This document shows, in pieces, positions 4,995 to 35,162 of a DNA stretch of 36,277 bases; position 1 is the first letter of the stretch; every line of letters begins with the position of its first letter. A model generated the notes under the pieces. It saw only the letters and a list, made by a program, of their open reading frames with translations. It was not told where the DNA came from and did not search any database. The stretch covers positions 1 through 36,277 of the IMG/VR virus record IMGVR_UViG_3300033148_006253. One strand, given 5' to 3'. A program made the translations under genes and the position numbers. Source of the stretch: a virus.

Positions 4995-5227
4995 AATACA
5001 AAATCCTCAACGGACGTTATCTAAAAAAGCGTCGGCACAAAATAATGTGTTGTTTGGCTTGCGGCAGAGACACACAATCATCTTCTGGGTTGTGTTCAAA
5101 TTGTAGAGGATTTGGTTCTTTCCACTCAACGTCTATTAGAGAAAACAAGGATAGAAAATTAGCAGATAACGAAACACATACATTTGAATCTCAATATGAC
5201 CTCGACACAGACGAGGATTGGCTATGA
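4991..5227 (+). CDS. Small zinc-finger protein (78 aa)
   Basis: ATG 4991 overlaps the preceding stop. A basic start (KYKILNGRYLKKRRHK) is followed by IMCCLACGRDTQSSSGLCSN and a further Cys: two C-x2-C pairs about 13 residues apart, a compact zinc-ribbon pattern. The tail is acidic (YDLDTDEDWL). It is probably a nucleic-acid or protein-binding accessory factor. It overlaps the methyltransferase start by ATGA. Confidence 0.6.
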   Translation: MKYKILNGRYLKKRRHKIMCCLACGRDTQSSSGLCSNCRGFGSFHSTSIRENKDRKLADNETHTFESQYDLDTDEDWL

Positions 5228-5853: not shown

Positions 5854-6026
5854 AAAACCATATAATTCTATACCCATATTTTTGTTATAATTGTTTAGCC
5901 GCATTCATTGATGAAAGGCCGCCCAATGACTCAAAAATCCGATGTAGATGGTGTAAAAGTAAAAATATCGTCGGGCCGAAAATATCTTTGCAAAAAACAC
6001 AACCGTCCAGCAGTAGTCGAGATTGA
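5850..6026 (+). CDS. Small zinc-ribbon protein (58 aa), TTG start
   Basis: TTG at 5850 overlaps the methyltransferase stop (TTGA) in the style of many neighbours. The frame encodes FCYNCLAAFIDERPPNDSKI followed by RCRWCKSKN, a clear two-knuckle zinc ribbon (C-x2-C, 17 residues, C-x2-C). Stop TGA is at 6024-6026. The 3' half overlaps the next gene in a different frame. The zinc ribbon is unlikely in a random frame, so I favour a real gene; the non-ATG start and overlap lower confidence. Confidence 0.5.
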   Translation: MKNHIILYPYFCYNCLAAFIDERPPNDSKIRCRWCKSKNIVGPKISLQKTQPSSSSRD

Positions 6027-6725: not shown

Positions 6726-8066
6726 ATGATTATTGATTTGAAACAATTGGCTGAAGTTACAAACCCTTCATTCTGGCCGCTGTTCAAGAACAAAAGCCGT
6801 TATTTGGTTTTGTGGGGCGGGGCCGGTTCGGGCAAAAGTTATTTTACAGCAGAGAAGCTGCTATTGAGAATTATAAAAGCGATGGAGAATAACTATATCG
6901 AAAAATTCTTATGTCTGCGAAAAACGATGCCGGCGGCCCGCAAGTCTGTATTTACTTTATTCAAAAGCTATATCACAAAATGGAATCTGTCGAGACTTTG
7001 CGTAATACACGAATCAACGATGGAGATTAACTTTCGGGGCGGCTCTAAGATAATCATCGGCGGTATGGATGACCCTGAAAAGATAAAATCCATCGAAGGT
7101 ATCACTGGGATTTGGATGGAAGAGGCAACGGAATTTTCAATGAACGAAAAAGTCAAAGACTTTACGCAGTTGGATTTGAGGCTGCGAGGCGAGACGCCGA
7201 GCTACAAGCAGATTATTCTTACGTTCAATCCTATTAGCGAGTTGAATTGGATTAAGGCACGTTTCTTTGATAAGCCCGACCCGGACGCAACGCTGCATCA
7301 TTCGACTTATTTAGATAATCGTTTTCTTGATTCGGAATACATTAAGATATTGGAGAAATTAAGTGAGAGAGACCAAAATTATCATCGAGTCTATAAGGAG
7401 GGCAATTGGGGAGTTCTTGAGGGCCTTGTATATGAACGATGGCGAGAGATTGAAAAGTTTCCAAATTACCGAGAGTTCGATTCCTTCTGTTATGGTATGG
7501 ACTTCGGATTCAGTAATAATCCTACGGCGATTGTCGAAGTCGGATTCCAGGGTGATGATTTATATTTGCGGGAAAAAATTTACGAGACTAAATTAACCAA
7601 CCAGGACATCTGCCGCAGGCTTGAAGATATTCGGGAAGGTGTGGTTATCGTCGCTGACTGTGCCGAGCCGAAAAGTATTCAAGAAATAAACAACGAAGGC
7701 TATTTGTGTATAGGTTCAATCAAAGGGCCTGATTCGATTAAGTATGGAATACAACGCGTGAAACAATTCAATATGTATGTCGATTCATTCAGTACAAATT
7801 TAAAAAGAGAATTGGTGTCGTACCGCTGGGCTGTTAAAGCCAATGGTGAGCCGGTATCACCGCCGAAGCCGGAAGATAAAAACAATCACGCGCTTGACGC
7901 CGTGAGGTATGCAGTAGTCAAATTAAAAGGATTAGGCAGGGGCAAGATTAGCATTTATGGTACTGATGACAGGGAGAGCACTAAAGAGCGTATTCGAGAA
8001 AAGGTAAGGGTAACAGAAAGCGACGAAGAGTTGATTGGCGTATTGAATGAGTTGGAAAATGGATGA
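6726..8066 (+). CDS. terL: Terminase large subunit (ATPase/nuclease packaging motor)
   Basis: The 446-residue protein has a Walker A GGAGSGKS at residues 31-38 and a Walker B ending in IWMEEATE (129-136). The C-terminal RNase H-like nuclease has acidic residues D259 (GMDFG), D311 (VADCAEPKS) and D391 (NHALDAVRYA). It matches the Terminase_3/PBSX-type family and translocates concatemeric DNA into the prohead at the portal, then cuts it. Length is normal and all key residues are present, so it should be active. The small-subunit candidate is 3.7 kb upstream; the portal follows after three small genes. Confidence 0.97.
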   Translation: MIIDLKQLAEVTNPSFWPLFKNKSRYLVLWGGAGSGKSYFTAEKLLLRIIKAMENNYIEKFLCLRKTMPAARKSVFTLFKSYITKWNLSRLCVIHESTMEINFRGGSKIIIGGMDDPEKIKSIEGITGIWMEEATEFSMNEKVKDFTQLDLRLRGETPSYKQIILTFNPISELNWIKARFFDKPDPDATLHHSTYLDNRFLDSEYIKILEKLSERDQNYHRVYKEGNWGVLEGLVYERWREIEKFPNYREFDSFCYGMDFGFSNNPTAIVEVGFQGDDLYLREKIYETKLTNQDICRRLEDIREGVVIVADCAEPKSIQEINNEGYLCIGSIKGPDSIKYGIQRVKQFNMYVDSFSTNLKRELVSYRWAVKANGEPVSPPKPEDKNNHALDAVRYAVVKLKGLGRGKISIYGTDDRESTKERIREKVRVTESDEELIGVLNELENG

Positions 8067-31773: not shown

Positions 31774-32676
31774 ATGATAACTGTAAAACAAAAAGAGCAG
31801 CGAAAAAATCATATCGGCGGCTCGGATATAGCCGCTATATTGGGGCTTAGCCCATTTGCGAATGCGTATGATATTTGGCTCCAAAAGACCGGGAAATTAG
31901 AGACGACCGATGAGCCAACTGACGCTATGGCGGTGGGCAATTTTCTTGAAAAGGGTGTACTTGATTATGCCGAATCTAAATTAGGACCACTGAAAAGAAA
32001 TCAATACCGCTCGGCCAAACACACTGGATTACCATTGGCTGTTAATTGTGATGCGATTGTTCTTGAGACCGGTGCTCCGGTTGAGGCTAAGACATCACAA
32101 TTATTTTTTCCGTATGGCCAGGGGCTATGGGGTGAACCGGGAACCGACGCTGTACCACCGGCCACGGTAGTCCAATGCCACGCACAAATGATATGCGTTG
32201 ATTGCGATTATTGTAACGTGGCGGCGTTAGTGGGCGGTAAAGGTTTGCTTATGTATATTGTGTCGAGAGATGCTGAGATTGAATCTATCATTCGACAAAC
32301 GATTAAAAAATTCTGGGAAAAAAATGTTTTAGCGGACATACCGCCTGAAGATATTATGCCTTCGATGCATTCGTTAAAAAGAATCAAGCGGGAGCCGAAG
32401 TCAATCGTTGATGTGCCGAAGGATTTAGTTGAAAAATGGCTTGAGACTAAAGAGGCGGAGGCAAAAGCAAAGAAGGCCCGGATTAAGGCGCAAGTTGAAT
32501 TATTGACTTATCTTGGTAAGGCCGAGGCGGGGCGATATGATGGTGGCCTGATTACTTATTTCGAACAGAGCAAGCGAGGTATTGACACAAAAAAATTAAA
32601 AGAATTACAGCCGGATTTGGCTGAGAAATTTGCAAAAATTAGTAAGTATCGAGTTTTGAGAAACAAAAAAGGTTAA
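31774..32676 (+). CDS. YqaJ-type recombinase exonuclease (lambda Exo-like)
   Basis: The 300-residue protein has HIGGSDIAAILGLSPF (residues 13-28), the acidic E60 in NFLEKGV, D93 in VNCDAIV and the E104-x-K106 pair in VEAKTS, the YqaJ/lambda Exo nuclease signature. It digests duplex DNA 5' to 3' and leaves single strands for annealing. A charged helix (EAEAKAKKARIKAQVELLTY) and a short C-terminal domain (KRGIDTKKLKELQPDLAEKF) follow. Genes for RecT and associated phage proteins come next. The leader TTGAAAGGGCAA precedes ATG 31774. Confidence 0.9.
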   Translation: MITVKQKEQRKNHIGGSDIAAILGLSPFANAYDIWLQKTGKLETTDEPTDAMAVGNFLEKGVLDYAESKLGPLKRNQYRSAKHTGLPLAVNCDAIVLETGAPVEAKTSQLFFPYGQGLWGEPGTDAVPPATVVQCHAQMICVDCDYCNVAALVGGKGLLMYIVSRDAEIESIIRQTIKKFWEKNVLADIPPEDIMPSMHSLKRIKREPKSIVDVPKDLVEKWLETKEAEAKAKKARIKAQVELLTYLGKAEAGRYDGGLITYFEQSKRGIDTKKLKELQPDLAEKFAKISKYRVLRNKKG

Positions 32677-32686
32677 GGAGCGAATA

Positions 32687-33646
32687 ATGGCAAAGAATAA
32701 TTTAGCACGTCGAAAACAACAATTGAAAGGATTGTTGAGCGAGGAGAATTTCAAAAAGAGTTTGCTTGATGTTTTGCCGAAGCATTTGACGCCCGAAAGA
32801 GTGGTTAAGATGGTATTGTTGGCGGCGTCAAGACAGCCGAGAATCTTCGAGTGCACGGATGCTTCTATCATCAAAGCAGCCATTACAAGCGGTCAGTTAG
32901 GTTTGGATTGTTCGGGAACATTAGGCCAGGCATATTTAGTACCGTATTTCAACGGCAAGATTAAGAAATATGAAGTTCAATTTATTCCCGGCTATCAGGG
33001 TTTAATCTCGCTGGCGAGAAGATCGGGTGAGATTCGTCGGATTGAGAGCCGAATCGTTTGTGAGAATGATAAGTTTGAGTTCGAATATGGCTTTAACCAG
33101 AATTTGAGACATATTCCTAACTTGCAAAACCCCGGACCGATGTCGTGTGTTTATGCAATTGCCGAATTCGTGGATGGTTCTAAACAGCTTGAAATTATGA
33201 CCGCGAAACAAATTGAAGGAATCAAAAATCGCAGTAAGGCAAAGAATGCCGGCCCATGGGTTACTGATTATGGCGAGATGGCACGCAAGACGGTTGTGCG
33301 TAGATTGTTCAAATATTTGCCTTGTTCGACGGAATTAGAGGTTGCGATTGAGGCGGATAATCAGCAATATGACTTTGAAACGCAAACGAATATCTCGGCA
33401 GGCATTGAAGGCACAAAAAAACAGCTTAAAAAGGTGGTCGAATCCAAAGAGGTAAAAGACGAAACGAACAATGATGTTGATTCAGAGACTACAACTGAAA
33501 CTCCGGTGGACGAAATTCCTGATAATGAAGTTACATTGAAATATCATTGCGTCAAGTGTGAGCATGATTTCGATGAGCCTAAAAAATCAGGGAAAGCTAT
33601 ATTGTGCCCGAAATGTTTGAGCGACGATATAATAAACAATCCGTAA
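32687..33646 (+). CDS. recT: RecT single-strand annealing protein with C-terminal zinc ribbon
   Basis: The 319-residue protein has the RecT core: HLTPERVVKMVLLAASRQPR, SIIKAAITSGQLGLDCSGTL, GQAYLVPYFNGK, VQFIPGYQGLISLARRSGEI, WVTDYGEMARKTVVRRLFKY, LPCSTEL. It anneals complementary single strands exposed by the upstream exonuclease. After an acidic linker (KDETNNDVDSETTTETPVDE) the end is YHCVKCEHDFDEPKKSGKAI and LCPKCLSDDI, a two-knuckle zinc ribbon not normal for RecT. The ribbon may recruit a partner or DNA. AAGGAG precedes ATG 32687. Confidence 0.95.
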   Translation: MAKNNLARRKQQLKGLLSEENFKKSLLDVLPKHLTPERVVKMVLLAASRQPRIFECTDASIIKAAITSGQLGLDCSGTLGQAYLVPYFNGKIKKYEVQFIPGYQGLISLARRSGEIRRIESRIVCENDKFEFEYGFNQNLRHIPNLQNPGPMSCVYAIAEFVDGSKQLEIMTAKQIEGIKNRSKAKNAGPWVTDYGEMARKTVVRRLFKYLPCSTELEVAIEADNQQYDFETQTNISAGIEGTKKQLKKVVESKEVKDETNNDVDSETTTETPVDEIPDNEVTLKYHCVKCEHDFDEPKKSGKAILCPKCLSDDIINNP

Positions 33647-33715: not shown

Positions 33716-33774
33716 AGGCATTATTTGTTTTATATTGATTGACATTAAGAAATTTTAATCAAAAGGAGCGTAAC

Positions 33775-34425
33775 ATGAAAAAGATAAATGAGATGAAGAA
33801 GATTACTATTGAGCCGGCGAATTTCAGAAAAGCTGTATTTGAAATCAGAGGTTTAACGCCGTATGTGCAATTAAAATTCACCGAGAAGGCAAAGCAGCAA
33901 ATGATAAACAAACAAAAGGCCGGGCAGATAGCAAAAAAAGGAGAGAAAAGAAAACCGAAAGATTTTGAGAAACTATACGAAGAATCGATGCACATATCAG
34001 ATGAGGGATGGTATGGGATTCCATGTGCTGCTATTCGGTCGGCAATGATTTCGGCTTGCCGGATGGCTGGATTCCAAATGACAAGGGCTAAACTTGCATT
34101 TTGGGTTGTGCCGGACGGAATTGACAGAGATGATAATTTGACAACTCTCACGAAAATTACAAAAGGAAAGCCTAAGCCTTTATATGCACCGGTTACTATT
34201 GGTCCAGGAACAACTGATATTATCCCCCGCGCAATTTGGGCTCCGGGCTGGGAGGCGAAAGTTATTATTGAGTTTGATTCCGACCAATTTAGTTTAGTCG
34301 ATATATCGAATTTATTATATCGTGCAGGGATACAGGTGAATATTGGTTGTGGTCGTAACGATTCAAAAAAATCGGCGGGCATAGGACTTGGAAAATTTAC
34401 AATAATTGGAAAAGATGAAAAATGA
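33775..34425 (+). CDS. Conserved phage protein of the RecT neighbourhood, unknown function
   Basis: ATG 33775 follows AAGGAG; the product is 216 residues. FEIRGLTPYVQLKFTEKAKQ, KKGEKRKPKDFEKLYEESMH, ISDEGWYGIPCAAIRSAMIS, ACRMAGFQMTRAKL, PGWEAKVIIEFDSDQFSLVD, ISNLLYRAGIQVNIGCGRND and SKKSAGIGLGKFTI match a phage family I recall encoded near recombinases or replication genes. The small-residue-rich end (G.GR.DSK.S.GIG.G.F) resembles the Gly-rich loop of RAMP-type RNA-binding folds, but that is speculation. It overlaps the next gene by ATGA. Confidence 0.8.
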   Translation: MKKINEMKKITIEPANFRKAVFEIRGLTPYVQLKFTEKAKQQMINKQKAGQIAKKGEKRKPKDFEKLYEESMHISDEGWYGIPCAAIRSAMISACRMAGFQMTRAKLAFWVVPDGIDRDDNLTTLTKITKGKPKPLYAPVTIGPGTTDIIPRAIWAPGWEAKVIIEFDSDQFSLVDISNLLYRAGIQVNIGCGRNDSKKSAGIGLGKFTIIGKDEK

Positions 34426-34868
34426 AAACGAAATATACTGACGAATTGGAGTTCATACGCAAGCGACACGCCGGTCTTTTGAGACCGAGAGATATAGTAG
34501 CTTATGCCGAGCGTTCGGACACGGCTTTACATTCGTATTTTGAATGGGATGACGATAAAGCTGCGTATGAATATAGATTGGAGCAGGCGAGAAGATTGAT
34601 AAGAATTCACGTCTGCCTTTTACCAAATGACAACAAAACCATTCGAGTTTATGCGTCATTGCCATCAGACCAAAAAAAATCGGGCGGTGGTTATAGAACG
34701 ATTGTCAATATTCTAAATCACGCCGAAAGACGCGAAGAAATGCTGAAATACATTCTTGACGAATTGATTCGAGTGAAAAACAAATATGAGCATTTTTATG
34801 AACTCAAAAATATATGGATTGAGATTGATAAGGCAAAAGAAAAAAGAAAAGATGTTATGACGGCGTAG
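34422..34868 (+). CDS. Conserved phage protein (148 aa), partner of the preceding gene
   Basis: ATG 34422 overlaps the previous stop. FIRKRHAGLLRPRDIVAYAE, DTALHSYFEWDDDKAAYEYR and LEQARRLIRIHVCLLPN match a frequent phage family (LRPE.VV..AR....LH..FEWDD..AA..YRL.QAR.LIR). It is a two-part helical/beta protein of unknown role, often beside recombination genes. Its TAG stop (34866-34868) lies within the first units of the AGCNN array, so the gene ends exactly where the array begins. Confidence 0.82.
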   Translation: MKTKYTDELEFIRKRHAGLLRPRDIVAYAERSDTALHSYFEWDDDKAAYEYRLEQARRLIRIHVCLLPNDNKTIRVYASLPSDQKKSGGGYRTIVNILNHAERREEMLKYILDELIRVKNKYEHFYELKNIWIEIDKAKEKRKDVMTA

Positions 34869-35045
34869 CTCAGCACAGCTTGGCCAAACGCAGCGAAGCT
34901 CAGCACAGCAAAGGCAAAGCTGGCGGCGCGCAGCGCAGCGAAGCGTGGCGGAGCGCAGCCAAGCGAAGCGGAGCGCAGCCAAGCAAAACAAAGCTGGCGG
35001 GGCGTAGCATATCGCAGCATAGCACAGCGAAGCCCAGCGAAGCTA
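34862..35045 (+). repeat. Degenerate pentanucleotide array, consensus AGCNN, about 36 units
   Basis: From 34862 to 35045 almost every fifth base pair starts a unit AGCNN; variants are GGCNN, CGCNN, AACNN or ATCNN. The GC dinucleotide keeps one phase at 34863, 34868, 34873 and so on, apart from one unit pair near 34912-34920 and a single one-base phase change near 34996. The last two positions take most of the 16 possible dinucleotides, so only AGC is held. Longer identical blocks occur at multiples of five: GGAGCGCAGCCAAGC at 34950 and 34970, AGCTCAGCACAGC at 34867 and 34897. GC content is far above the neighbourhood. Confidence 0.9.
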
Positions 35046-35162
35046 ATGATGCGAAATATCAGGAAAAATGGTGTGTCGGCAAGCCTTTGCAAGACTTATG
35101 TACATGATATTGAAGTCGTCGGCAACATCCACCAGAACCCCGAATTATTGGAAAATAAATGA
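35046..35162 (+). pseudogene. C-terminal remnant of a YopX-family gene (38 codons)
   Basis: The frame from ATG 35046 encodes MMRNIRKNGVSASLCKTYVH followed by DIEVVGNIHQNPELLENK. The end is the typical YopX C-terminus (..DIEVIGNI.ENPELL), but the preceding about 90 residues of a YopX protein are missing; the same frame runs back through the AGCNN array without a stop to 34869. Replacement of the N-terminal part by the array is inferred. It overlaps the next gene by ATGA. YopX is a phage family of unknown function. Confidence 0.65.

Follow-up and report, generated by a model that had tools for sequence, protein, structure and literature searches.

A 184-base array of degenerate AGCNN pentanucleotides occupies positions 34862-35045 of the window, the whole 36,277-nt stretch of viral DNA analysed here (IMGVR_UViG_3300033148_006253), and the question it raises is what could hold a triplet fixed every five bases while leaving the two bases that follow it free to vary. 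Our answer is that it is very probably an array of vrRNA guides belonging to a phage-encoded VIPR system, with approximately three guides built on an AGC core. VIPR was first reported in an April 2026 preprint and is proposed as the ancestor of CRISPR effectors; it consists of a phage RAMP protein, Vipr, of ~20 kD, together with an accessory gene and with vrRNAs whose 9-16 units follow GGY/NN or a related consensus, and SUSP1 is the main experimental model (bioRxiv 10.64898/2026.04.26.720920, PMC13142463). The first-pass annotation of the window held that no described element followed such a rule, which was true until that date and has been overtaken by the preprint (PMC13142463). With the window, this kind of system, known since April 2026, gains a member that falls outside the SUSP1 type and has a core unlike the GGY consensus of the main text.

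A five-base period in which a triplet stays fixed while the dinucleotides roam had been read from the letters alone, and autocorrelation at lag 5 had been set beforehand as the check. Identity at this lag was 0.609 for 34862-35045 versus 0.295 +/- 0.040 in 2000 first-order shuffles, above every one of them (maximum 0.475), and the best 180-nt stretch anywhere in the window scored 0.611, with scores of 0.411 or less across 100 window shuffles. Further peaks stood at lags 10, 15, 20, 25 and 30 (0.52-0.55), and TRF gave periods of 5, 10, 20 and 25, including a period-20 block at 34928-34984 with 89% matches; recurrence at 20 and 30 bases had been noticed earlier. The sharply raised GC content was likewise borne out (0.636 in the array versus 0.397 and 0.366 in the kilobases on either side). 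What had been described as about 36 consecutive units comes to ~37 by manual count, and the phase is broken by one additional base at ~34912 and by two 4-nt AGCT units (34918-34921 and 34992-34995, + strand). Because GGC stands directly after each of these 4-nt units, the array resolves into three blocks, each with a GGC start, and is not a single 36-unit run. The core is RGY in 33 units (26 AGC, 7 GGC), and the exceptions are AAC twice, CGC and ATC. Elsewhere in the window, short tandem repeats were seen in a left-end ORF (139-292), CCGCTG and ATGCCGCCA being among their units.

The array had also been placed right after the recombination genes. It does lie downstream of a YqaJ/RecE-like exonuclease gene (31774-32676) and RecT (32687-33646), but two further genes stand between, and the array belongs with those two. 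The first is vipr (33775-34425, + strand), encoding a Cas7-like (RAMP) protein of 216 aa from its ATG, in an ORF that opens at 33739 (216-228 aa). The second, an accessory (vap-like) gene of 148 aa assigned to phrog_15946 (34422-34868, + strand), overlaps the end of vipr, and its own stop codon (34866-34868) is overlapped by the first units of the array. Both genes are intact, and accessory genes of this group adjoin vipr in 86 of the 87 loci that carry phrog_15946. Among cultured relatives, Mycobacterium phage Donkeykong, which grows on M. smegmatis, has this accessory gene too. The gene relevant to the array is the ORF two genes upstream, vipr, and not the RecE/RecT pair. Directly after the array follows a 38-aa 3' remnant of yopX (35046-35162; PF09643 positions 98-128, E 6.4e-6) and beyond it a DUF7694 gene; the remainder of yopX was apparently displaced by the array. 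Scanning the locus for promoters and terminators gave nothing above shuffles.

A search of phage genomes with a degenerate pattern, proposed at the outset, was run on viral contigs with eight AGCNN units. Setting pure microsatellites aside, it returned at least 155 distinct degenerate arrays in at least 51 loci, the window included, and many of them flank one gene family. Among the matches listed, arrays lie mostly on the strand of the neighbouring genes, and ~11% of units are not AGC, the deviations being mostly AGT and GGC. Pure microsatellites of AGCAC, AGCGC, AGCAG and AGCCA were encountered in L006, L012, L022, L028 and other viral contigs, with no link to Vipr. Their existence, together with the 20-nt internal repeats of the window, would suit growth by replication slippage followed by mutational blurring, one of the explanations first put forward. 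However, mutation alone blurs all five positions, yet in the at least 155 arrays, among the matches listed, the AGC core positions are 95-98% conserved and the NN positions near-uniform over all 16 dinucleotides. Slippage leaves this triplet-only conservation unexplained, the arrays moreover follow one gene family with the core triplet changing along with it, and we regard a plain microsatellite as extremely improbable.

The same collection bears on whether the array could be coding, as a low-complexity S-x-A-x-x repeat fused in frame to the C-terminus of YopX. The frame of the yopX remnant is open through the array (34869-35162), ending in the YopX tail, but it holds no ATG, GTG or TTG start before 35046. 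By our estimate open frames are about as frequent as random NN would give, and 43 of 155 arrays, among the matches listed, have no open forward frame; taken as a class, then, the arrays are non-coding. The earlier opinion that selection on a protein repeat was unlikely is upheld, and we attach next to no weight to a coding origin.

The gene family that the arrays flank is Vipr. It is present at 37 of the 51 array loci among the matches listed, and several of the others end at contig ends. In the converse test, viral contigs were searched by protein alone; this gave 160 loci, 118 of them with a 5-nt array on the sense strand close to the gene, versus one array in 98 control stretches from loci without Vipr. 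Core triplets are GGC or GGT in most relatives (mixed GGY too) and AGC or CGC in some. Iterated HMM searches that started with the window ORF, and likewise those that started with a relative at L010, converge on this one family, whose HMM matches SUSP1 Vipr with E 3.5e-48; between the L010 relative and SUSP1 Vipr the identity is 39%. Homologues are annotated as hypothetical in many sequenced phages, Escherichia phage SUSP1 (L327) among them. Pfam and NCBIfam hold no Vipr family model, the best being a weak Csm4 match (E 0.03), and Rfam gave no match from 12 sources. The AlphaFold model of the window protein (pLDDT 89.6) best matches Cmr, Csm3 and type VII Cas7 subunits with Z 12.8-13.0 over ~155 residues (Foldseek, VIA-align), and that of the L010 relative (pLDDT 91) likewise matches these Cas7-type subunits. 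Members share the ending G-I-G-x-x-R-P...G-R-F, which resembles the glycine-rich loop of RAMP proteins. Structure matches and the HMM link to SUSP1 together describe a RAMP homologue with an RRM core and glycine-rich loop, in a family of its own.

This association also bears on a reading at the level of DNA, in which the array would be a phased binding site, or an iteron for recombination or replication tied to RecE/RecT. A 5-nt phasing is about half a helical turn, and the recombination genes do lie upstream. Against it, the arrays accompany Vipr amid quite different neighbours, such as DNA ligase in Felixounavirus and tail genes in Medea1, and their NN positions hold target information when one base is skipped (see below). 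A phased binding site was the nearest of the guesses first offered; a guide RNA that a Cas7-like protein reads fits better, and we consider a DNA-level site most unlikely.

Three known systems come closest. With VIPR the locus shares the phage RAMP protein, the adjoining accessory gene (here the phrog_15946 gene beside vipr), a fixed triplet with hypervariable NN every five bases and, at the family level, the one-base skip. It differs in its accessory gene, which is unrelated to SUSP1 vap1 (no similarity of the two proteins was detectable by hhalign), and in its core; as this is mostly AGC, with RGY in 33 of ~37 units, we speak of a related consensus and not of strict GGY. Class 1 CRISPR-Cas (Csm3, Cmr, type VII Cas7) is alike in fold, glycine-rich loop and a row of guide units, but CRISPR uses a contiguous spacer whereas the window has a 5-nt step with non-pairing triplets. 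The stretch contains no identical repeats with contiguous spacers, and no cas1/cas2, Cas10 or other cas genes were seen in the window, where one RAMP-like and one accessory gene stand beside the array. Sites of TRAP, the trp RNA-binding attenuation protein, also present a triplet every five nucleotides with free spacers, ~11 times. Protein and triplet are unrelated there, however, and TRAP spacers carry no target information; no G/U preference before AG was found in the at least 155 arrays among the matches listed. TRAP-like and RecT 5-nt-step ideas were dropped after the link to Vipr emerged.

The 4-nt units divide the array into its putative individual guides. Cassette 1 (34862-34921, + strand) runs GGC-GT, AGC-TC, AGC-AC and so on to a closing AGCT, with the extra base already mentioned, and has NN of GT TC AC TT CA GC GA TC AC AA. 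Cassette 2 (34922-34995, + strand) is bounded by GC[AT]|GGC joints at both ends, with NN of GG GC GC GA GT GG GC CA GA GG GC CA AA AA. Cassette 3, the last (34996-35045, + strand), lacks a closing joint and reads GG GT AT GC AT AC GA CC GA (TA). Their unit counts, about 12, 15 and 10, fit the vrRNA range. In loci with the window-type accessory gene, GC[AT]|GGC joints are spaced by 5n+4 in 299 of 345 cassettes, mostly 39-59 nt, a rule that cassette 2 obeys exactly (74 nt = 14 x 5 + 4). GGC is the first unit even where the core is AGC (L050, L065) or CGC (L179).

In the preprint, a constant 3' tail characterises the SUSP1 clade (type II) and other types have other array layouts (PMC13142463). 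The window has no such tail after its repeat tract, its cassettes being joined directly; this excludes the type II layout and not VIPR, because the preprint gives other types other layouts. Unlike the window, a SUSP1-like AGC clade carries a constant 57-nt hairpin-bearing stretch after the guides. Six closely related phage loci hold 33 distinct guides and have just one of them exactly in common, from which guides appear to turn over as whole cassettes. One locus, L018 (8674-9019), has a single array of 69 AGCNN units with no interruption or visible joints, well above 9-16 units per guide.

The following course, from RNA processing and RNP formation to DNA binding and repression, would hold by analogy with the preprint. 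The operon of vipr, accessory gene and array reads from left to right, and Vipr, as a Cas7-like subunit, would polymerise along each guide in steps of 5 nt. The protein would hold the fixed RGY triplet (in the window AGC, with GGC opening each guide), leaving the free NN of successive units to pair with target DNA as NN-x-NN-x-NN, where one target base, usually the wobble base of a codon, is skipped per unit. The complex would then repress transcription of its target, probably a gene that belongs to a competing phage or prophage.

The reading of NN with one skipped target base is the rule given in the preprint (PMC13142463), and it could be recovered from other data. We compared the NN strings of 515 unique arrays with 4.75 Mb of fetched phage DNA on both strands, skipping 0, 1 or 2 bases; over stretches of ten units, matches that reached 19/20 or better numbered 0, 89 and 0 respectively. 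With three skipped bases nearly only the arrays themselves matched, having that spacing. An L267 guide (5072-5127) matches, in codon phase and with the wobble base skipped, the conserved T-K-A-H-K-E-L-T region of vipr genes from more than 25 other phages. This supports the one-base skip rule independently of the original authors' data set. AGC-core arrays alone gave 0, 9 and 0 matches at 19/20 for the three skips, and 14 blocks at 18 or more with skip 1 versus 4-5 with other skips and 6-9 with shuffled unit order; one AGC guide, from L020, finds its match in L052 vipr, where again the wobble base is the one skipped. The rule thus extends, modestly, to AGC cores.

For the three guides of the window no target above chance was found, in viral contigs for all three, in genomes for guide 1, or in its own genome. 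An exact-match scan with guide 1 gave none in viral contigs and two in genomes, neither convincing, one lying in a planctomycete ORF that resembles an outer-membrane barrel. Guides 2 and 3 had 17 and 19 viral-contig matches, about what a rough codon-usage estimate gives, and extension past the searched units failed; against the window's own genome nothing exceeded background. A guide of the L050 relative also found no target match. This absence counts against VIPR identity, as do the AGC core in place of the main-text GGY, the long branch of the window Vipr and its weak direct PHROG match (E 4.6e-4 to phrog_4652, the SUSP1-type Vipr family).

Some of these points could instead indicate decay, in which once functional guides have been damaged in the window copy and now direct nothing. 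Four of ~37 cores are not RGY, guide 1 carries an extra base, the last cassette lacks its closing joint, the Vipr ends a long branch and no guide target was found. It should be considered, however, that vipr and the accessory gene are intact and 33 cores remain RGY, that core deviations are common elsewhere (the ~11% given above, among the matches listed), that guide 2 fits the cassette rule exactly, and that in the fetched sequence known targets are lacking for most guides, whichever the phage. We judge decay unlikely, though a good deal more plausible than the readings that dispense with guides.

Taking the array as a VIPR guide array, a more tentative proposal, which we hold possible but would not favour, is that it represents an undescribed subtype with an AGC (elsewhere CGC) core, GGC in the first unit only, tail-less head-to-tail guides and a 4-nt joint, with repeated switches of the core. 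In a 163-protein tree, many of whose inner branches are weak, the AGC label needs 9 changes versus 33 with shuffled labels, and the window Vipr is placed with relatives whose cores are GGC and GGT. The Vipr of L127, where the core is GGT, is 55% identical. Sampling of AGC loci went in part via the repeat, so core frequencies are biased. Under the subtype reading, repeated switching along the Vipr tree would mean that the protein-RNA code itself evolves and that specificity residues could be mapped by comparison; the switches between GGY, AGC and CGC would make the residues that read the core triplet testable through naturally diverged Vipr proteins and their guides. Finally, with one base skipped, AGC guides of L098 (+ strand, ~6894-6972), L077 and L121 (- strand, ~5866-5905) match their own locus beside the array, at best at 23-24 of 26-28 bases, which could be self-regulation.
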